From the NCBI GenBank assembly GCA_002695005.1, contig NZNT01000020.1:124001-188000 (forward strand): a DNA stretch of 64,000 nucleotides, written 5' to 3'. The first letter of the stretch is position 1. Each line of letters opens with the position of its first letter. This DNA is from Maritimibacter sp. Its GTDB lineage: Bacteria; Pseudomonadota; Alphaproteobacteria; Rhodobacterales; Rhodobacteraceae. Of the stretch, positions 6,264 through 14,118 are shown one piece after another. A program made the translations under genes and the position numbers. The notes under the pieces were generated by a model. It ran no database searches, was not told where the DNA came from, and saw only the letters and a program-made list of their open reading frames with translations.

Positions 6264-7265
6264 TCAGGCGGATTTCGCGACCGGCGCGGCCCGGTCGCGG
6301 CCATGCGGGGCGTCCCAGTCGATGGTCGGCCCGACCGGGATGATCCGATGCGGGTTCACGCTTTCATGGCTGTAGTGGTAGTGGCGGATGTAGTGGTCGG
6401 GGTGAACCGTGTTCGCGACACCGGGCCACTGGTAAAGCTCGCGGGAATAGGCCCAGAGGTTCGGGAAGTCGACCAGCCGGTTCCGGTTGCACTTGAAGTG
6501 GCCGTGATAGACCGGATCGAAGCGCAGAAGGGTGGGCAGGAGCCGCCAGTCCGCTTCGGTCACCCGGTCGCCGGTCAGATAGCGCTGCCGCGACAGGATG
6601 TCCTCGAGCCAGTCCATCGAGTCGAACAGCGCACCCACGGCCTCGTCATAGGCGTCCTGCGACGTGGCGAAACCGGACTTGTAGACGCCGTTGTTCACCG
6701 TGTCATAGACGCGGGCGTTCACGGTTTCGATCTCGTCATGGAGGTCTGCGGGATAGAAATCCTGCGTGTCCCCGGTGAGATCGTTGAAGGCCGAGTTGAA
6801 CATCCGGATGATCTCGGCGCTTTCGTTGGATACGATGGCGTTCGTCTTCTTGTCCCACAGGATCGGCACCGTGACGCGGCCCGAAATGGTCGGGTCGGCC
6901 TCCGTGTAGATGTCACGCAGGAACGGTTTGCCCATAAGCGTGTCCCCCGTGGCGCCGACGAAATCCGTGTCGAAGGTCCAGCCGTCGTCGAGCATGTCAG
7001 GATGCACGACCGAAACGTCGATGTGATCCACAAGGCCCTTCAGCGTGCGGAAGATCAGGGTGCGGTGGGCCCACGGGCAGGCGTAGGAGACATAGAGGTG
7101 ATAGCGACCCGATTCGGCTTTGAATCCGGCATCGCCGGTCGGACCGGCGGATCCATCCGGCGTGATCCAGTTTCTGAACTTCGTTTCGCTGCGCACGAAC
7201 TTGCCGCCATGCGCCTTGGTGTCATACCAACCGGTGTTCCATTCGCCGTTCTCGAGATAGCCCAT
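6264..7265 (-). CDS. yqjG: Glutathionyl-hydroquinone reductase (YqjG/PcpF type)
   Basis: This enzyme reduces glutathionyl-hydroquinones to hydroquinones with glutathione (Xi-class GST). The 333-residue product has the class signature SYACPWAHR with catalytic Cys63 in the thioredoxin-like N-terminal domain, VPILWDKKTNAIVSNESAEI as the GSH-binding block, and an all-helical C-terminal domain containing WLEDILSRQRYLTGD and ADWRLLPTLLRFD. The length matches the family. The start MGYLENGEW at 7265 is preferred over an in-frame ATG five codons upstream because the family begins there. It is divergent from the cobalamin operon and probably has its own promoter. Confidence 0.93.
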   Translation of the reverse strand: MGYLENGEWNTGWYDTKAHGGKFVRSETKFRNWITPDGSAGPTGDAGFKAESGRYHLYVSYACPWAHRTLIFRTLKGLVDHIDVSVVHPDMLDDGWTFDTDFVGATGDTLMGKPFLRDIYTEADPTISGRVTVPILWDKKTNAIVSNESAEIIRMFNSAFNDLTGDTQDFYPADLHDEIETVNARVYDTVNNGVYKSGFATSQDAYDEAVGALFDSMDWLEDILSRQRYLTGDRVTEADWRLLPTLLRFDPVYHGHFKCNRNRLVDFPNLWAYSRELYQWPGVANTVHPDHYIRHYHYSHESVNPHRIIPVGPTIDWDAPHGRDRAAPVAKSA

Positions 7266-7417
7266 CGTGCGTCTCCTCATGTTTGCTTGGCCACTTACAT
7301 AGGGAAACGATCATCTGTGCGATACGGTTCAATCGGCGCAAGCTTCGTGCGCTCCTGCACATACGACGCTTTCGATTGAGCGGGTGTCGCCTTTCCTGTA
7401 GTGACTCCCGCGACGAT

Positions 7418-7517
7418 GCCCCAAGAGGGGCCGGAGAGGTGACTGCCGAATGATCGACCCAGACCGGGGATCAGGGCGCGGTGTCGTCGGTCGATGACGC
7501 ATGGCCTCTCCGCGCCC
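7418..7517 (+). promoter_or_regulatory. Structured 5' leader of the cobalamin operon (candidate RNA switch)
   Basis: The 275-bp gap before the operon (7266-7540) contains a long-range helix. GGGC-CGGAGAGG (7428-7439) pairs with CCTCTCCG-c-GCCC (7505-7517), giving 12 bp with a single bulged C. It encloses two hairpins: TGATC.CCC/GGG.GATCA (7451-7473, 2-nt bulge) and GTGTCGTC/GATGACGC (7481-7500, two G-U pairs, GGTC loop). The result is a three-way junction. An alternative hairpin, GCCCC-AAGA-GGGGC (7418-7431), shares 7428-7431 and would compete with the closing helix. The helix ends 10 nt before the AAAGGA ribosome site of the first gene. It does not show the conserved B12-box of the cobalamin riboswitch. 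The pairing is seen in the sequence; a regulatory role is inferred. Confidence 0.45.
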
Positions 7518-7540
7518 GGACGCTGCAAAGGACCATGCCG

Positions 7541-7759
7541 ATGACCCGCCTTCTCGCTTTCTTCGCTTTCCTGCCCGGCATGGCGCTGGCCCATCCGGGC
7601 CATCTTGCCGACGTGGCCGGGCACGACCACCTCGTCGCCGGTGTCGCGATCGGTGTGGCCATCGGCGTTGCCGTCTGGGGTGCGCTGCGCGGCCGAAAGG
7701 ACGAAGAGGTCTCGGACGAGACCGATGAGGCCGCCGATTCCGAAACGCAGGAGGCCTGA
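7541..7759 (+). CDS. DUF6732-like small secreted/membrane protein of the cobalamin locus
   Basis: The 72-residue protein has a signal-type N terminus (MTRLLAFFAFLPGMALA, likely cleaved before HPGHL) and a His-containing segment (HPGHLADVAGHDH) that could bind metal. One membrane helix follows (LVAGVAIGVAIGVAVWGAL), then a charged acidic tail. It matches the small protein that precedes cbiX in many Rhodobacterales. ATG 7541 is chosen because AAAGGA lies 8 bp upstream; ATG 7535 and an in-frame GTG at 7481 are less likely. It is separated from cbiX by 1 bp. A role in cobalt handling is inferred only from the histidines and the context. Confidence 0.7.
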   Translation: MTRLLAFFAFLPGMALAHPGHLADVAGHDHLVAGVAIGVAIGVAVWGALRGRKDEEVSDETDEAADSETQEA

Positions 7760-7760
7760 G

Positions 7761-8951
7761 ATGTCCAAGACCGGCGTGATGATCTGTGGCCACGGCTCGC
7801 GCAGCCAGGCTGCCGTCGATGAATTCAAGGTGCTGGCCGAAAAGCTGCCCGCCTATTTCCCTGACGACTGGATGGTCGATTATGGCTACCTCGAATTTGC
7901 CAACCCGGTGATCCGATCGGGGCTCGACAACCTGCGTGACGCGGGATGCGACAAGATCCTCGCCGTACCGGGGATGCTGTTCGCTGCGATGCATTCCAAG
8001 AACGACATTCCCGCGGTGCTCAACACCTATGCTGCCGAACATGGGGTCGAGGTGTCCTATGGCCGCGAACTTGGCGTGGACCCGAAGATGGTCGCGGCCG
8101 CCGGCGAGCGCGTGCGCGATGCCGTTTCGGCGGCGGATGCCGAACACGGCCCCGTTCCGCGCGAAGAGACCTGTCTCGTCGTGATCGGGCGTGGCGCGTC
8201 CGACCCGGACGCCAATGCGAACGTCGCCAAGATCGCACGGCTCTTGCAGGAAGGGTTGGGCTTCGGCTGGCTGGAGGTCGGCTATTCCGGTGTCACTTTC
8301 CCGCTGGTCGAGCCCTGCCTGCAACATGCGGCCAAGCTGGGTTACAAGCGGATCGTCGTGTTCCCCTATTTCCTGTTCACCGGCATCCTGATCGACCGGA
8401 TCTATGGCTTCACCGATCGTGTTGCCGCAGCGCACCCCGAGATCCAGTTCGTCAAGGCGGGCTACCTGAACGACCATCCCAAGGTGCTCGAAACCTTCGC
8501 CGAGCGCGTGACCGAGCAACTGGGCACTGTTCCGCCGCCGAACTGCGGCACCTGCCCCTATCGCGAACAGGTCCTGTCGATGGACGGTGGCGCACATAAA
8601 CACATCAAGCCGGAGGACCGGGCGGGGCATCCGGCGTTTTCCGACACGCCGCCCCCGACCTGCGTGATGTGCAAATACCGGGTCGAAGTGCTGGGTTTCG
8701 AAGCCGAGGTGGGCGCTGTGCAGGAGAGCCACCACCACCATGTCGAAGGGCAGGGGGCACAGGCCCCCGGCTCCCGGGTCGAGGATTGCACATACTGCGA
8801 CACGTTCTGCACCGGTGAGTGCCGCCTGCACCTGCACGATCACCACCATCACCACGACCATGACCACGATCACGGGCACCATCACCACCATCACGCAGAA
8901 TACCCGCACGCCAGGCACCCGCACGGCCCCGAGTCGGCGCGCTCGAAATGA
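7761..8951 (+). CDS. cbiX: Sirohydrochlorin cobaltochelatase CbiX, long form with Cys- and His-rich tail
   Basis: CbiX inserts Co2+ into sirohydrochlorin. The 396-residue protein carries two tandem chelatase half-domains: residues 1-120 with GHGSRSQAAV, and residues 135-250 with VVIGRGASDPDANANV and FPYFLFTGILIDRI. A metal-rich tail follows, with CGTCPYR (about 260), CVMCKYR (about 300), CTYCDTFCTGEC (about 342-353) and a histidine run (HDHHHHHDHDHDH...) to about residue 385. Long CbiX proteins are known to hold an Fe-S cluster and a His-rich region; here three separate Cys clusters are visible. It overlaps cobH by 4 bp. Cobalt insertion before corrin synthesis is normally a feature of the early-cobalt route, yet the following genes are of the late-insertion type. 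Confidence 0.93.
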   Translation: MSKTGVMICGHGSRSQAAVDEFKVLAEKLPAYFPDDWMVDYGYLEFANPVIRSGLDNLRDAGCDKILAVPGMLFAAMHSKNDIPAVLNTYAAEHGVEVSYGRELGVDPKMVAAAGERVRDAVSAADAEHGPVPREETCLVVIGRGASDPDANANVAKIARLLQEGLGFGWLEVGYSGVTFPLVEPCLQHAAKLGYKRIVVFPYFLFTGILIDRIYGFTDRVAAAHPEIQFVKAGYLNDHPKVLETFAERVTEQLGTVPPPNCGTCPYREQVLSMDGGAHKHIKPEDRAGHPAFSDTPPPTCVMCKYRVEVLGFEAEVGAVQESHHHHVEGQGAQAPGSRVEDCTYCDTFCTGECRLHLHDHHHHHDHDHDHGHHHHHHAEYPHARHPHGPESARSK

Positions 8952-9601
8952 CTGGACGCCCGCCCCTGCGCTACGAGCGTGACCCGGCTGCAATTTACCG
9001 TCAGAGCTTCGCGACCGTCGAAAAGGAAGCGCGGCTGGATCGGTTCGATGCGGGCATGGCGCAGCTTGCCACGCGGATCATCCATGCCTGCGGGATGGTG
9101 GAAGTTGCGGACCGGCTGGCGTTTTCCGACGGGGCCTTTGCGGCGGGGCAGGCGGCGCTGGCATCCGGCGCGCCGGTTCTGTGTGATTGCGAGATGGTGG
9201 GCGCGGGGATCATCCGGCGCTATTTGCCCGCTCAGAACGAGGTCGTGGTGACACTCAATGACGCATCGGTGCCGGAGCGCGCGCGCGACATCGGCAATAC
9301 ACGCAGCGCAGCCGCGGTAGAGCTTTGGGCCGACAGGCTTGAGGGCGCGGTGGTCGCCATCGGCAACGCCCCGACGGCGCTGTTCCACCTTCTCGAACTG
9401 CTCGATGCCGGCGCGCCGAAGCCCGCCGTGATCCTCGGGTTCCCCGTCGGTTTCGTGGGGGCCGCCGAGTCCAAGGCGGAGCTTGCGAACAACCCGCGCG
9501 GTTGCGACTACGTCGCGCTGCGGGGGCGCCGCGGCGGGTCGGCCATCGCCTCGGCCGCGGTCAATGCGCTGGCCGCAGGTCTGCCGGAGCGGGTGCAGTG
9601 A
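8948..9601 (+). CDS. cobH: Precorrin-8X methylmutase
   Basis: CobH (CbiC) moves the C11 methyl to C12, converting precorrin-8X to hydrogenobyrinate. The 217-residue length is normal. The N-terminal YRQSFATVEKEA and the RIIHACGMVEVADRLAFS block, which holds the catalytic histidine, are conserved, as are CDCEMVGAGI and the C-terminal VGFVGAAESK and RGCDYVALRGRRGGSAIA motifs. The start codon overlaps the cbiX stop and the stop overlaps the GTG start of cobL, so it is translationally coupled on both sides. Confidence 0.96.
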   Translation: MTGRPPLRYERDPAAIYRQSFATVEKEARLDRFDAGMAQLATRIIHACGMVEVADRLAFSDGAFAAGQAALASGAPVLCDCEMVGAGIIRRYLPAQNEVVVTLNDASVPERARDIGNTRSAAAVELWADRLEGAVVAIGNAPTALFHLLELLDAGAPKPAVILGFPVGFVGAAESKAELANNPRGCDYVALRGRRGGSAIASAAVNALAAGLPERVQ

Positions 9602-10800
9602 GCGCGCCCTGGCTTCATATCGTCGGGATCGGCGAGGATGGGCTCGACGGTCTGACCCCTGCGACTCGCACCGTTGTCGAAACGGCCGAGATCATCGTCG
9701 GCGGCGACCGGCACCATACGCTTGCGGATGGACTCACGGCGCAACGAGTCGCCTGGCCGTCGCCCTTCGATGCGCTGATCGACCAGCTGTTGTCCTACAA
9801 AGGCAAGCGCGTGGTCGTGCTGGCCACCGGCGACCCCCTCTGGTTCTCGGTCGGCGCGCGCATCGGGCGCGCGATTCCGGCGGACGAGATCACGTTCCAT
9901 CCGCAGCTCTCCGCCTTCCAACTCGCCAGTGCGCGAATGGGGTGGAGCATGGCAGACCTCGAGACGCTCACGGTGCACGGCCGCCCGGTCGAGCAGATGA
10001 TCGCCTTCATCCAGCCCGACGCGCGGCTCCTGATCCTGACGACGGGTGAAGAGACTCCGGCCCAGATCGCGCGGTTCCTGACGGAACGTGGGTTCGGGAA
10101 GTCGCCCATGACGGTGCTCGCCAATATGGGCGGGAAGGACGAGACTCGGTTCGACGGCATTGCGGAAAGCTGGTCCCACGAAGTCCCCGCTTTCAACACC
10201 CTCGCCGTGGAGTGCATTGCCGCCCCGGACGCGGCCCTCGTGCCACGCGTTCCCGGACTTGCGGATGAACTCTTCGAGTCCGATGGCACCATGACCAAGC
10301 GCGAGGTGCGGGCGATCACCGTGGCCAAGCTCATGCCGATGCGCGGCGCGCTGCTGTGGGATATCGGGTGCGGCTCCGGGTCCGTCGCGATCGAGTGGAT
10401 GCGCGCGGCACGCTATGCCCGCGCAATCGGGATCGAACCGCGAGACGACCGGCGGGCCATGGCGGCCGCGAATGCGCTGGCGCTGGGTGCGCCGCGGCTC
10501 GACCTCGTAGACGGCGAAGCGCCGATGGTTCTGCAAGGCCTCGAACGCCCGGACGCCATCTTCGTCGGTGGCGGGATGAGCGAAGAGACGTTTCGCGCGG
10601 CGTGGGAGGCCCTGCGGCCCCTTGGCCGGTTCGTCGCCAACGCGGTGACGCTGGAAAGCGAAGGGCTCCTCAATGACCTGCATTTCCGCCATGGCGGGGA
10701 ACTCACCCGGATCGCGGTGGATCGTGCCGAGCCGCTCGGGTCTATGCGGGGCTGGCGCTCCGCCATGACCGTGACGCAGTGGAGCCTTTTGAAACGATGA
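9598..10800 (+). CDS. cobL: Precorrin-6Y C5,15-methyltransferase (decarboxylating), CobL/CbiET fusion
   Basis: The enzyme methylates C5 and C15 and decarboxylates the C12 acetate. The 400-residue protein is the usual two-domain form. The N-terminal CbiE-type tetrapyrrole methylase runs to about residue 200, with HIVGIGEDGLDGL and LATGDPLWFSVG. The C-terminal CbiT-type methyltransferase runs from about 230 to the end, with TKREVRAI and the SAM motif WDIGCGSGSVAIEW. The GTG at 9598 is chosen because it overlaps the cobH stop (GTGA) and because the homology begins there. Confidence 0.95.
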   Translation: MSAPWLHIVGIGEDGLDGLTPATRTVVETAEIIVGGDRHHTLADGLTAQRVAWPSPFDALIDQLLSYKGKRVVVLATGDPLWFSVGARIGRAIPADEITFHPQLSAFQLASARMGWSMADLETLTVHGRPVEQMIAFIQPDARLLILTTGEETPAQIARFLTERGFGKSPMTVLANMGGKDETRFDGIAESWSHEVPAFNTLAVECIAAPDAALVPRVPGLADELFESDGTMTKREVRAITVAKLMPMRGALLWDIGCGSGSVAIEWMRAARYARAIGIEPRDDRRAMAAANALALGAPRLDLVDGEAPMVLQGLERPDAIFVGGGMSEETFRAAWEALRPLGRFVANAVTLESEGLLNDLHFRHGGELTRIAVDRAEPLGSMRGWRSAMTVTQWSLLKR

Positions 10801-11498
10801 CCGGCATGCTCATCGGTGTGGGCCTCGGGCCGGGCGATCCGGACCTGATGACGCTCCGGGCCGCGCGGGTCATCGGCGCGGCGGAGGTCGTCGCTTATCC
10901 CACTCTACCCGGCACCGACAGCTTCGCGCGGTCCATCGCGGCGGACCTGATCCGGCCGGACGCCGATGAGATCGTGATCGAAGTGCCGATGACCAAGGCC
11001 CGTGAGCCCGCTCAGGCGGCCTATGAAGTGGGAGCAGAGCGCATCGCGGCGGCCCTGGAGGCCGGTCGCGACGTGGCGGTGCTCTGCGAAGGGGACCCGT
11101 TCTTCTACGGGTCGTTCATGTATCTTCATTCCCGACTTGCGGAGCGTTTCCCGGTCACCGTCATTCCCGGCATCACCTCCGTCTCTGCTGCGACCGCAGG
11201 GGCCTTGCGCCCGCTCGTGGCACGCAACGAGGTGCTCACGGTCCTGCCGGGCCCCATCGACAGCGCAATGCTTGCCAGTAAAGTCGAACAGGCCGAGGCG
11301 GTGGTCATCATGAAGGTTGGCCGCCACCTTTCCCGCATCCGCGATGTCCTCGACCAGTTGGGGCTTGCCGAGCAGGCTATCTATGTCGAACGGGCCACGC
11401 TGGACGCCGAGCGGATCCTGCCGCTGGCCGAAGCGCCGGACCCGGCCCCTTATTTCTCTCTGATACTCGTCACGAAAGGCTCCGATCCGTGGCTTTGA
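10797..11498 (+). CDS. cobI: Precorrin-2 C20-methyltransferase
   Basis: CobI (CbiL) methylates precorrin-2 at C20. The 233-residue protein is a single tetrapyrrole methylase domain with the N-terminal GVGLGPGDPDLMTLRA motif, CEGDPFFYGSF in the central SAM-binding loop, and VIPGITSVSAATA. The ATG at 10797 overlaps the cobL stop by 4 bp and is preferred over the in-frame ATG at 10779. The gene overlaps the GTG start of the next gene by 10 bp. Confidence 0.95.
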   Translation: MTGMLIGVGLGPGDPDLMTLRAARVIGAAEVVAYPTLPGTDSFARSIAADLIRPDADEIVIEVPMTKAREPAQAAYEVGAERIAAALEAGRDVAVLCEGDPFFYGSFMYLHSRLAERFPVTVIPGITSVSAATAGALRPLVARNEVLTVLPGPIDSAMLASKVEQAEAVVIMKVGRHLSRIRDVLDQLGLAEQAIYVERATLDAERILPLAEAPDPAPYFSLILVTKGSDPWL

Positions 11499-13330
11499 AA
11501 CCTGTCGTCCTCTGTCTCAACCGCTCCGGCGAGGCCGTCGCGCATCGCGTGGCCGATGCGCTCGGCGCGTCCGTTCATGGTCGGGAGGGGCGGGTCGAAA
11601 AGGCCGATGCCTTCTTCCCGAATGCGCTCGATCATACGCGCGACCTGTTTGCGGCGGGAACGCCCATCGTGGGCGTCTGCGCGGCGGGCATCCTGATACG
11701 CGCCGTCGCGCCGATCCTCGCGGACAAGCGAACGGAGCCACCGGTCATCGCCGTGTCCGATGACGGCAGCGTCGCAATCCCGCTGTTGGGCGGGCATCGC
11801 GGGGCGAACCGGCTTGCAACCGAAATCGCCGAGGCGCTTGGGGCCAAAGCTGCGGTGACCACGGCTGGAGACGTGGCCTTGGGTGTTGCGCTCGACGTGC
11901 CGCCTGCGGGCTATCGTCTTGCGAATCCGGAGGATGCCAAGTCCGCGATGGCCGCGATGTTGTCCGGCGGCGGTGCGAAGGTGATCGGGAATGCGGTCTT
12001 CGAGATCGAGAGCGATCCCGACGGCAGGGTGGAACTCGTGGTGACCGAAGAACCGGTGGACGGTGGCCCACAACGGCTCGTCTACCACCCGCAGTCCTTC
12101 GTCCTTGGTGTGGGCTGCGCGCGGGGGGCCGATCCGGCCGAATTGCGCGCATCCGTCGATGTGATGCTGGCTGAAGCTGGCGTGGCGCATGGGGCGATCG
12201 CTGCCGTTGCCACGCTGGACCTGAAGGGCGATGAGCCGGCCATGAACGCGCTCGCCCGCGACCTCGGTGTGCCACTCAAGGTCTTCTCTGCGGACGAACT
12301 GGAGGCCATGACCCCCCGTCTGGCCACCCCTTCGGAGGTCGTCTTTGCCGAGGTGGGATGCCACGGTGTCGCCGAAGGCGCAGCACTGGCCAGCGCGGGT
12401 GAGGATGCGATCCTCGCGGTCACCAAGCGCAAAACGGCGAATACCACCTGTGCCCTGGCGAATGCACCCGCGCCCCTCACCGCGCCCGCGGGCCGGGCCC
12501 GCGGCAAACTGTCGATCATCGGGATCGGGCCGGGGCAGGCGACCTGGCGCACCCCGGAAGCGTCGCGGCTGATCCAGGAAGCCCAAGAGCTTGTGGGTTA
12601 TGGCCTCTATATCGACCTCCTCGGCCCGCTCGTAGCAGGCAAGACGCGGTCGGATTTTCCGCTGGGCGGAGAAGAGGATCGGTGCCGGTATGCCCTTGAG
12701 CAGGCCGGGAAAGGTCGCAATGTCGCGCTGATCTGCTCAGGCGATGCCGGTATCTACGCGATGGGCGCGCTCGTGTTCGAGCTTCTCGACCGTGGCGCGC
12801 ATGAGACCGGCGTGTCGGATGCCGCGCGGCGGGTGGAGGTCATCTCGACACCCGGCGTCTCGGCACTTCAGGCGGCGGCCGCGCGGGCCGGTGCGCCGCT
12901 GGGTCACGACTTCTGCGCGATCTCGCTCTCGGACCTTCTGACTCCGCGCGAGGATATCGTGAAGCGGCTTCATGCGGCGGCGGAGGGCGATTTCGTGATC
13001 GCTTTCTATAACCCGGTGTCGCGGCGCCGGAGGACCCTTCTGGCGGAGGCGCGGGATATCCTGTTGGACCATCGGCCCGCCGATACCCCTGTCCTTCTTG
13101 CCTCGTCACTGGGAAGACCAGAAGAAAACATACGCTACCGTAGGTTGGCCGAGCTTGAGGTGGACGAGGTGGACATGCTCACCGTCGTCCTGATCGGATC
13201 GTCCAACTCGCGACTTGCGGAACTGGGCGAGGGCCCGCGCATGTTCACGCCGCGCGGCTATGCCCGGCGAATCGATGGTGACCTGCGCGACGTGGGCAAC
13301 CGGCATCTCGAAACGGAGGACACACCATGA
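11489..13330 (+). CDS. cobJ: CbiG-CobJ fusion: cobalamin biosynthesis protein CbiG plus precorrin-3B C17-methyltransferase
   Basis: This is a 613-residue two-enzyme protein. Residues 1 to about 330 are a complete CbiG. The N-terminal domain holds VGVCAAGILIRAVAPIL and IPLLGGHRGANRLA; the linker and C-terminal CobE-like domain hold VLGVGCARGAD, TLDLKGDEPAM and VGCHGVAEGAAL. From about residue 345 there is a full CobJ/CbiH tetrapyrrole methylase, with IIGIGPGQATWRTPEA, CSGDAGIYAMG, STPGVSALQAAAARAGAPLG and FYNPVSRRR. CobJ performs ring contraction and C17 methylation. CbiG is known from the anaerobic pathway as the lactone hydrolase that releases acetaldehyde, while only its C-terminal part (CobE) occurs in classical aerobic sets. 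The GTG start overlaps cobI. The stop overlaps cobM by 4 bp. Confidence 0.93.
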   Translation: MALKPVVLCLNRSGEAVAHRVADALGASVHGREGRVEKADAFFPNALDHTRDLFAAGTPIVGVCAAGILIRAVAPILADKRTEPPVIAVSDDGSVAIPLLGGHRGANRLATEIAEALGAKAAVTTAGDVALGVALDVPPAGYRLANPEDAKSAMAAMLSGGGAKVIGNAVFEIESDPDGRVELVVTEEPVDGGPQRLVYHPQSFVLGVGCARGADPAELRASVDVMLAEAGVAHGAIAAVATLDLKGDEPAMNALARDLGVPLKVFSADELEAMTPRLATPSEVVFAEVGCHGVAEGAALASAGEDAILAVTKRKTANTTCALANAPAPLTAPAGRARGKLSIIGIGPGQATWRTPEASRLIQEAQELVGYGLYIDLLGPLVAGKTRSDFPLGGEEDRCRYALEQAGKGRNVALICSGDAGIYAMGALVFELLDRGAHETGVSDAARRVEVISTPGVSALQAAAARAGAPLGHDFCAISLSDLLTPREDIVKRLHAAAEGDFVIAFYNPVSRRRRTLLAEARDILLDHRPADTPVLLASSLGRPEENIRYRRLAELEVDEVDMLTVVLIGSSNSRLAELGEGPRMFTPRGYARRIDGDLRDVGNRHLETEDTP

Positions 13331-14118
13331 CCGTCTATTTCATCGGAGCGGGTCCGGGTGACCCGGAATTGCTGACCCTCAAGGCGCAGCGGATCATCGG
13401 GGAGTGTCCCATATGCCTCTACGCCGGATCGCTCGTGCCGCCTGAAGTCGTTGCTTGTGCTCCGGATGGCGCGCGCGTGATGGACACCGCGCCGATGACG
13501 CTGGATCAGACACATGCCGAGATCGTCGCGGCCCATGAGCGGGGCGAGGACGTGGCCCGCGTGCATTCCGGCGATCCGTCGCTCTACGGGGCCATCGCCG
13601 AGCAGATCCGACGGCTGCGCGAAGCGGACATCGACTATCAGATCATTCCGGGCGTGCCTGCCTATGCCGCAGCTGCTGCCGCTCTGGGCCAGGAGTTGAC
13701 AGTCCCGGAAATAGCGCAAAGCATTGTTCTGACACGGGTTTCCATGCAGTCGACGGCAATGCCCGAGGGCGAGACGCTGGAAAACTTCGCGCGGACCGGC
13801 GCGACGCTCGCCATCCACCTTGGCGTGCGCAACATGCGCGAGATTGAGCGTGTGCTGACGCCGCATTACGGTGCGGACTGCCCTGTCGTGGTCGCCTACC
13901 GCGTCGGGTGGCCGGACGAGATGCTCATTCGTGGCACGCTTTCGGACATCCGCCTGAAGGTGCGGGCCGAAAAAATCACGCGCACGGCGTTGATCCTGGT
14001 GGGTCCCGCGCTCGGCAAGGTCCGGGCGTTCAAGGATTCGGCGCTCTACGACCCTACGCGACCGCATGTTCTTCGGCCGGTCGTCGGTGTCGACCTGGTG
14101 GAAGAAAACAACACCTGA
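13327..14118 (+). CDS. cobM: Precorrin-4 C11-methyltransferase
   Basis: CobM (CbiF) methylates C11 of precorrin-4. The 263-residue protein has the methylase signatures VYFIGAGPGDPELLTLKA, CLYAGSLVPPEVV, RVHSGDPSLYGAI, PGVPAYAAAAAALGQELT and VAYRVGWPDE. It is the last gene of the seven-gene run. cobK, cobG/cobZ, cobB, cobN and the later assembly genes are not in this window and must lie elsewhere. A short hairpin CGATC-TCAG-GATCG (14131-14144) follows, but it has no convincing T tract. Confidence 0.96.
   Translation: MTVYFIGAGPGDPELLTLKAQRIIGECPICLYAGSLVPPEVVACAPDGARVMDTAPMTLDQTHAEIVAAHERGEDVARVHSGDPSLYGAIAEQIRRLREADIDYQIIPGVPAYAAAAAALGQELTVPEIAQSIVLTRVSMQSTAMPEGETLENFARTGATLAIHLGVRNMREIERVLTPHYGADCPVVVAYRVGWPDEMLIRGTLSDIRLKVRAEKITRTALILVGPALGKVRAFKDSALYDPTRPHVLRPVVGVDLVEENNT

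Follow-up and report, generated by a model that had tools for sequence, protein, structure and literature searches.

A conserved leader RNA of the cbiX–cob operon in Rhodobacteraceae: a candidate translational switch with probable kinship to the cobalamin riboswitch

In textbooks, B12 synthesis is the classic case of control by cobalamin riboswitches. Here, we describe an RNA of approximately 80 nt outside Rfam, which in many Rhodobacteraceae replaces the B12 riboswitch before the cob operon. In the window, that is, the whole 64,000-nt stretch of Maritimibacter sp. DNA analyzed, it appears as a 77-nt conserved core (7412–7488, + strand) in front of a cobalamin operon. This sensor candidate is almost certainly a conserved, structured cis-regulatory RNA. 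Our main reading, to which we assign a probability of about one half, is that the core derives from the B12 riboswitch and would sense a corrinoid-type product, acting as a translational OFF switch.

Operon and structure of the leader core

The operon was assigned through its Pfam domains, which bore out the seven genes given in the initial annotation. It opens with a DUF6732 gene (7541–7759, + strand; PF20506, 4.7e-29 for the reading from 7535), encoding a small protein in which an HPGH...GHDH motif follows a signal-like start. The long form of cbiX comes next (7761–8951, + strand; PF01903, 3.5e-48), its sequence containing CxxC motifs and a His-rich tail. The remaining genes (8948–14118, + strand; Pfam CbiC, TP_methylase, CbiG_N/CbiG_C) are cobH, cobL, cobI, a cbiG–cobJ fusion (a CbiG–methylase fusion lying within the cbiX operon), and cobM; the cob names beyond the Pfam families are presumed from gene order. 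In addition to long CbiX, an early-type chelatase, the genome has the late-type CobN (G000:C29:526715-529960). Further CobN/Mg-chelatase family matches were noted at G000:C26:104536-107508, as two stretches in one 1294-aa frame with scores below that of CobN; this frame is possibly a magnesium chelatase of bacteriochlorophyll synthesis. The DUF6732 motif resembles HPXXGXDH, the signature of the HupE nickel/cobalt permease according to the text passages of PMC7689651, and judging by its sequence the protein may be a cobalt-handling membrane peptide.

The core is made up of a closing helix (P1), a hairpin (P2), a conserved strand with the consensus CRGANAGG, and an arm (P3) that ends in the hairpin P4, all on the + strand. 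The covarying model forms a single three-way junction of P1, P2, and P3. The pairing statistics that follow refer to an alignment of 99 sequences, and the 3′ strands of P1 and P3 were placed by covariation and a position check. P1 connects GACGA (7412–7416) with TCGTC (7484–7488); 99.0% of its cells were paired, and three of the five pairs changed on both sides. The hairpin GCCCC-AAGA-GGGGC (7418–7431), regarded in the initial annotation as a competing hairpin, was found there and proved to be the conserved P2 of the core (94.1% paired; both-side changes in four of five pairs). It is followed by the J2/3 purine strand CGGAGAGG (7432–7439; consensus CRGANAGG), supported by conserved columns and by the helix A tests described below, which is either part of the core or the partner of 7505–7512. 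P3 joins ACTGC (7442–7446) to GCGGT (7478–7482). All four of its modelled pairs changed on both sides (89.7% paired), and no other column pair covaried as strongly as one located here. P4, GATC-GA-CCC-AGACC-GGG-GATC (7452–7472), had 98.6% paired cells with both-side changes in six of seven pairs, and its GA bulge (7456–7457) was invariant in 27 of 27 sequences.

A further hairpin, GTGTCGTC/GATGACGC (7481–7500, + strand), was recognized by eye in the closest relatives and would capture the 3′ strand of P1 in the alternative state. P4 and this hairpin are the two internal hairpins of the initial annotation, and both are present; P1, P3, and the helix masking the ribosome site (see below) had been overlooked. 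Folded on its own, the leader (7400–7535) had an ordinary energy (z = −0.45; 67 of 200 shuffles folded equally well). The case therefore rests on the comparison with relatives.

Homologues and covariation

The DUF6732 protein (74 aa) was present in 29 of 147 related genomes, and the core was pulled out by pattern from 27 of these 29 leaders and then aligned. In the 27-sequence consensus of P1–P4, 91.9% of the cells were paired, compared with 84.3% in shuffles, and 11 of 21 pairs changed on both sides. The covariance model R1 was derived from this stage, and R2 from the matches of the new element. R2 matched 7407–7492 in the window with 74.5 bits, a score to be read with the window copy being among the model's own training rows. 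In the family search, R1 matched 104 of 295 genomes with a limit of E ≤ 0.1, including 86 with E < 1e-3, nearly all with a single confident match; the element is present in ~30% of the family genomes searched. The order search gave matches in 94 of 292 genomes (E ≤ 0.01), the class search in 7 of 385 (two being family members and two noise), and the phylum search with R2 in 15 of 299 (five being noise). Low-scoring matches without cbiX (L066, L067, L341–L345, and L201) were set aside as noise. L198 was rejected as a member, being a canonical RF00174 riboswitch.

From 100 loci, R1 returned 99 matches for the large alignment, missing L030, which is a weak member like L027. In this alignment, 96.0% of the cells were paired and 17 of 21 pairs changed on both sides. 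Its covariation score was 0.390, compared with 0.156 after shuffling and no more than 0.110 when the structure was slid; both the paired-cell and the covariation figures come from an alignment fitted to the model. A separate covariation ranking was carried out on 95 of the 99 rows, leaving out four weak ones, and 10 of the top 11 column pairs were the model's own. The sole exception lies within J2/3 (columns 50–58) and has only 45% standard pairs. A GGUU/GACC pseudoknot between J2/3 and P4 was absent from the 32 listed covarying pairs; the bases concerned hardly vary, so covariation is no strong test of it. The alignment of leaders across relatives, as proposed in the initial annotation, thus revealed conserved and covarying pairings in both the 27- and the 99-sequence sets.

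Gene context

The element heads the (DUF6732–)cbiX–cob operon. In the 29 best loci, cbiX followed DUF6732 without exception. Among the model-match loci L032–L089, cbiX lay downstream in 56 of 58, the other two being the weak class-search matches L066 and L067. Eight of these 56 cbiX loci had no DUF6732 match at E ≤ 1; the element is therefore tied to the cbiX operon and not to DUF6732. A further set (L150–L207) contained cbiX in 56 of 58 loci, with the canonical riboswitch L198 and the weak match L201 as exceptions. A degenerate-pattern search of GTDB contigs returned at least 117 stretches. For the 80 listed ones examined, cbiX was found within 900 nt in 77, and the motif lay at most 400 nt from the locus end in the other three. 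These loci were titled Rhodobacteraceae, other named genera, which we take to be Rhodobacterales, or alphaproteobacterial MAGs.

The gene cbiX occurred in 34 of 80 genomes, and R1 placed the element upstream of it in 31 of the 34. The element of G061 was matched by R1 only at E 0.001, and R2 detected a degenerate form upstream of cbiX in G024 (36.6 bits). G021 and G066 hold cbiX with neither an R1 nor an R2 match upstream of it (stretches L209 and L208). The 46 genomes without cbiX had no R1 match below E 0.005 among the matches listed. At one locus (L193, 1095–1173, G014), the element has a divergently oriented canonical B12 riboswitch as its neighbor, encoded on the other strand at a distance of ~100 nt.

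Promoter-like signals and leader geometry

Comparison of 108 leaders revealed promoter-like signals adjacent to the core. The best −10-like hexamer, sought at offsets −22 to −9, fell 12–15 nt before P1 in 90 leaders, and TTG was commonest at −35 to −37 from P1 (86 occurrences). The predicted promoter of the window (7376–7402, + strand) consists of the −35 element TTGAGC (7376–7381) and a −10 element of approximately TGTAGT (7397–7402); a plain sigma-70 consensus scan found no promoter in the window leader. Transcription is predicted to start at ~7407–7412, at P1. This lies upstream of 7440, the position beyond which, in the initial annotation, a start would speak against the switch.

Start codons, chosen automatically, lay 40–65 nt past the model match in 71 of the 108 leaders and outside that range in 37. 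In the window, the ribosome site AAAGGA (7527–7532) precedes the start ATG at 7535 or a better-spaced ATG at 7541 (7527–7543, + strand). No intrinsic terminator was found in 7281–7560. Transcription attenuation through such a terminator was set aside, and translational control is hence the simplest reading of the window leader. In the distant member L347 (753–860), a ribosome-site-like AGAGG and a start codon come almost directly after P1. L347 must therefore work differently, and P1 itself might gate translation there. Among the matches listed, G+C was lowest in L178 (1035–1118, G200; 0.49), with its start codon picked 140 nt downstream.

The leader geometry also bears on the idea that the element is a relic, i.e., a decayed riboswitch kept by chance and having no regulatory role. 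The missing canonical ligand core and the weakness of some members (L027 and L030) would fit a relic, but the strong covariation, the near-invariant unpaired bases across the family, and the conservation of promoter-like signals and spacing render it highly improbable.

Competing helices downstream of the core

Two mutually exclusive helices were considered. Helix A is formed by the 3′ strand of P2 and J2/3 with a downstream stretch, and helix B by a downstream stretch with the ribosome site. In the window, helix A pairs GGGC (7428–7431) and J2/3 with the arm at 7505–7517 (+ strand), consisting of CCTCTCCG (7505–7512) and GCCC (7514–7517); C7513 is unpaired, and all the pairings of the initial annotation are present. 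The GGGC/GCCC extension was found in the closest relatives and a few others, e.g., L075. This 12-bp helix (7428–7439/7505–7517) ends 9 nt upstream of the ribosome site AAAGGA, a distance given as 10 nt in the initial annotation. Contrary to that annotation, it does not close the sensor. It is best read as an antisequestor, which competes with P2 and with the masking helix (7499–7507/7529–7538). In the latter, helix B, the sequestor 5′ arm GCATGG-CCT (7499–7507, + strand) pairs with the 3′ arm AGG-A-CCATGC (7529–7538, + strand), overlapping the ribosome site and the first ATG.

Energies were calculated for 70 of the 74 leaders with a start 35–66 nt away, four weak or unanchored ones being left out. 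The mean for helix A was −18.0 kcal/mol, compared with −16.5 when the downstream stretches of other genomes were used (p = 0.004). For helix B, the native mean was −15.6 and the swapped one −14.2 (p = 0.0012). The margin over the swapped leaders is small for both helices, and the window's own helix B was no better than the swaps (fraction 0.55). Shuffling of the downstream stretches in 66 leaders weakened helix A from −18.0 to −14.8 (p = 2e-8). In the window, helix A reached −28.1 kcal/mol, compared with −13.1 to −24.1 in 12 shuffled downstream stretches. The arms of the two helices overlapped by at least 3 nt in 66 of the 70 leaders.

The accessibility of the ribosome site was calculated for the 66 leaders with an alignment row. 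It amounted to 0.38 with the core forced and 0.54 with helix A forced, being lower with the core in 60 of the 66. Forcing a downstream helix of any kind raised the accessibility to some extent in shuffled controls as well (from 0.43 to 0.52), and the native difference was larger than the shuffled one (p = 2.5e-4). The values for the window were 0.23 and 0.61, respectively. Covariation between J2/3 and the antisequestor was weak (A/G-type test, p = 0.034 and p = 0.148 for the two sides). In the distant member L346, helix A is preserved although the sequence is quite different (−21.8 vs −15.0; 1 of 300 shuffles); it is the only one of five distant members with helix A above shuffles, L348, L063, L064, and L065 being the others.

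These findings indicate that the leader is probably a translational switch using helices A and B. With regard to the functional class of riboswitches, it has a covarying 5′-leader fold and a mutually exclusive platform, the evidence for the platform being statistical and moderate and the start being predicted. The initial suggestion of a cis-acting switch with mutually exclusive folds before the cobalamin operon gains support from the covariation and the overlapping helices.

Relation to the cobalamin riboswitch

The initial annotation saw no canonical B12 elements in the leader, and direct searches agreed. A scan of the window at the Rfam gathering cut-offs gave only a tRNA, and RF00174 was not reached. 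RF00174 had no match at E ≤ 10 in 7200–7700 nor in five distant members. None of RF00174, RF01482, RF01689, and the other Rfam 15 riboswitches matched the leader up to E 10; the first and third of these had been named in the initial annotation. The only Rfam match in 7200–7700 was Guanidine-III (E 3.8), on the other strand and outside the leader. In the loci of 18 relatives, no Rfam match at E ≤ 1 fell on the core, and two matches fell elsewhere. No B12 box with up to three mismatches was found near 7407–7560, and the two matches in the window (56397 and 61000) compare with 2.6 expected by chance. The CCACTG of kissing loop L5 (GCCACTGG, at most one mismatch) was absent between 6953 and 8516.

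The architectures differ as well. According to the text passages of PMC11260477, canonical B12 binding requires the P3–P6 four-way junction and the kissing loop; RF00174 has this four-way junction, whereas the core model has only the P1/P2/P3 three-way junction. RF00174 spans ~200 nt and the new element ~80 nt, with P1 closing right after P3, where P4–P6 would begin. The window leader is thus devoid of P4–P6, the L5 CCACTG, and the B12 box. Common to both are the pathway and the order of the P2 hairpin, the purine-rich joint, and the P3 arm. The distant member L348 shows CCCGGUGC...CCGGGGCUG, similar to cccGGUGc...CCgggGCuG of the Rfam consensus for RF00174.

R2 also matched the 5′ halves of canonical riboswitches, with 36.2 bits for L198 and 31.9 and 28.9 bits for L339 and L340; the lowest value is close to the noise matches L066 and L067 (28.0 and 27.6 bits). 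In the reverse direction, we used a model (R3) of 23 canonical 5′ halves, three of which had been chosen because R2 matched them. On 36 element loci, R3 yielded 30 matches at E ≤ 1, each of which coincided with the element and its strand. Full-length matches, extending over the P2–P3 hairpins with the joint and the GCUG that follows, were obtained for L348 (2.1e-6) and for L063, L346, L064, and L065 (6e-5 to 7.1e-5). The Rhodobacteraceae members matched mostly in the P3 arm (E 0.002 to 0.9), and the window copy (L042; 14.0 bits, E 0.24) in this arm only. With 30 of the 80 pattern loci, there were 16 R3 matches at E ≤ 1, again without exception overlapping the element. From these sequence comparisons, the core is probably kin to the 5′ half of the cobalamin riboswitch. 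Its descent from the P2–P3 half, or a reuse of that half, is supported, not proven. A merely diverged canonical riboswitch (RF00174, RF01482, or RF01689) would account for the R2 score on the 5′ half of L198 and for the detection of distant members by R3. However, neither the window leader (E ≤ 10) nor the core in 18 loci (E ≤ 1) has an Rfam match, no B12 box or CCACTGG occurs near the window leader, and P1 closes the modelled core where P4–P6 would begin, and we find this reading scarcely credible. The "divergent B12 sensor" of the initial annotation is half right: the RNA shows an apparent relationship to the 5′ part of the B12 riboswitch, whose ligand-binding core it lacks.

The genome of the window contains one RF00174 riboswitch, in front of cbtB–cbtA and cobW (named by eye), with cobN ~3 kb further. 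Among 45 cbiX-less relatives searched, 23 have cobH. In 21 of these 23, RF00174 lies 4.7–7.4 kb upstream of cobH on the same strand, as read from the coordinates of the matches listed; G018 and G029 deviate, and for G029 no RF00174 was listed on that contig. The CobN coordinates give the gene order RF00174–cobN–cobH. In the 34 cbiX genomes, no RF00174 stood on the same strand directly before cbiX among the matches listed. These positions indicate that the canonical riboswitch keeps cobN, and the new RNA holds cbiX–cobH.

The two leaders have a hairpin in common. The P4-type hairpin (four pairs, GA bulge, three pairs, and a short loop) forms the tip of the P3 arm in the cobN-leading canonical riboswitch. 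In the cbiX genomes (RF00174 copies L349–L383, L001, L117, and L118), 25 of 27 cobN-leading copies had it, compared with 2 of 14 other copies. In the genomes without cbiX, it occurred in 1 of 15 copies leading cobN and in 1 of 24 other copies (Fisher test on the cobN leaders, 3e-8). Three of 83 aptamers were unanchorable and left out of this count; an earlier count, made less strictly and including some mis-anchored rows, had given 24 of 42 vs 1 of 41. The canonical copies keep the GA bulge though their stem and loop sequences differ. Retention of the bulge in varied stems, and its frequency in the cobN riboswitches of cbiX genomes and rarity elsewhere, would suit an RNA-binding protein that reads the P4 hairpin here and in the cobN riboswitch, coordinating both transcripts. 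Common descent together with an intramolecular contact would yield the same pattern, however, and P1, P2, J2/3, and P3 are also conserved, beyond the need of one hairpin-binding protein. We regard such a protein-binding leader as unlikely, yet as a serious rival; a corrinoid and an RNA-binding protein common to both leaders are the foremost candidates for what the core recognizes.

Discussion

With the above results in hand, we propose that the DUF6732–cbiX–cob mRNA begins with the P1–P4 core, which would sense some product of this pathway, a corrinoid being the likeliest. With the core folded and occupied, the CRGANAGG strand and P2 would be tied up. The downstream GCAUGGCCU... (7499–7507) would then pair with the ribosome site and the first AUG (7529–7538), turning translation off. 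With the core empty, CGGAGAGG and the 3′ side of P2 would pair with the downstream CCUCUCCG (7428–7439/7505–7517). This 12-bp helix would remove the arm of the masking helix, so that the ribosome site would be free and translation on. The core itself would descend from, or be built on, the 5′ half of the cobalamin riboswitch. Since the end product of the pathway fits best, we tentatively favor a corrinoid as the ligand.

The gene content of the operon also brings to mind a riboswitch for another ligand, such as S-adenosylmethionine, a metal ion (cobalt or nickel), or a tetrapyrrole from early in the pathway, e.g., sirohydrochlorin. In the loci checked, the gene that follows the element is cbiX, coding for a chelatase of the long type, and the operon holds tetrapyrrole methylases, which presumably use S-adenosylmethionine. 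The likeness of the HPGH...GHDH protein to HupE, as characterized in the text passages of PMC7689651, points in the same direction. On the other hand, a logic in which the occupied state would be OFF is more in keeping with an end product than with a substrate, for instance cobalt, the gene context in the loci checked is only the cbiX operon, and the nearest sequence kinship found is with the cobalamin riboswitch. We judge these other ligands improbable.

The reading of a corrinoid-responsive translational switch can be extended. The element might represent a second, minimal corrinoid-responsive RNA class, in which the P2–P3 domain was cut from the cobalamin riboswitch and reclosed by a new P1. 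It would have taken over the cob operon at its split into a cobN part, under the canonical riboswitch, and a cbiX part, under the new RNA, and the shared GA-bulge hairpin would couple both leaders via a common partner or contact. This scenario is speculative, and we hold it to be rather doubtful in its entirety. The element would be either a second solution for corrinoid sensing, one that dispenses with the known binding core, or a piece of a riboswitch put to use for another signal. It offers a way in which a cob operon with no recognizable B12 riboswitch may be regulated, and the proposed switch mechanism can be tested with the alignment and the structure model available.

As far as sequence comparison can tell, the element corresponds to no Rfam family, and we found no published description of it. 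A 2017 study reportedly listed 224 motifs, and a prior listing of the element there is possible. Judged by titles and abstracts, none of the papers listed dealt with DUF6732 or described the leader element; an earlier listing in motif supplements is possible, the motif surveys being represented by text passages of PMC2864571, PMC8632094, PMC11109978, PMC6429828, and the review PMC7266159.

Among known systems, the SAM/SAH riboswitch RF01727 occurs exclusively in Rhodobacterales and consistently before metK, according to the text passages of PMC2864571. It resembles the element in its taxonomic range and its association with one gene, but the gene and the pathway are different. HRC-8-4 and uORFC-8-2, structured motifs from comparative genomics, are likewise restricted to Rhodobacterales in the text passages of PMC8632094. 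They are located at cco genes and before cysS, not at cob genes, and one is like a terminator stem, the other like a ribosome-mediated attenuator (PMC8632094). RF01727 had no Rfam match at the window leader.

Translational riboswitches use two mutually exclusive helices that share an arm, one of which masks the ribosome site. The sequestor and antisequestor of the cbiX leader would follow the same helix logic as these riboswitches, with a sensor core and a ligand that are candidates only.
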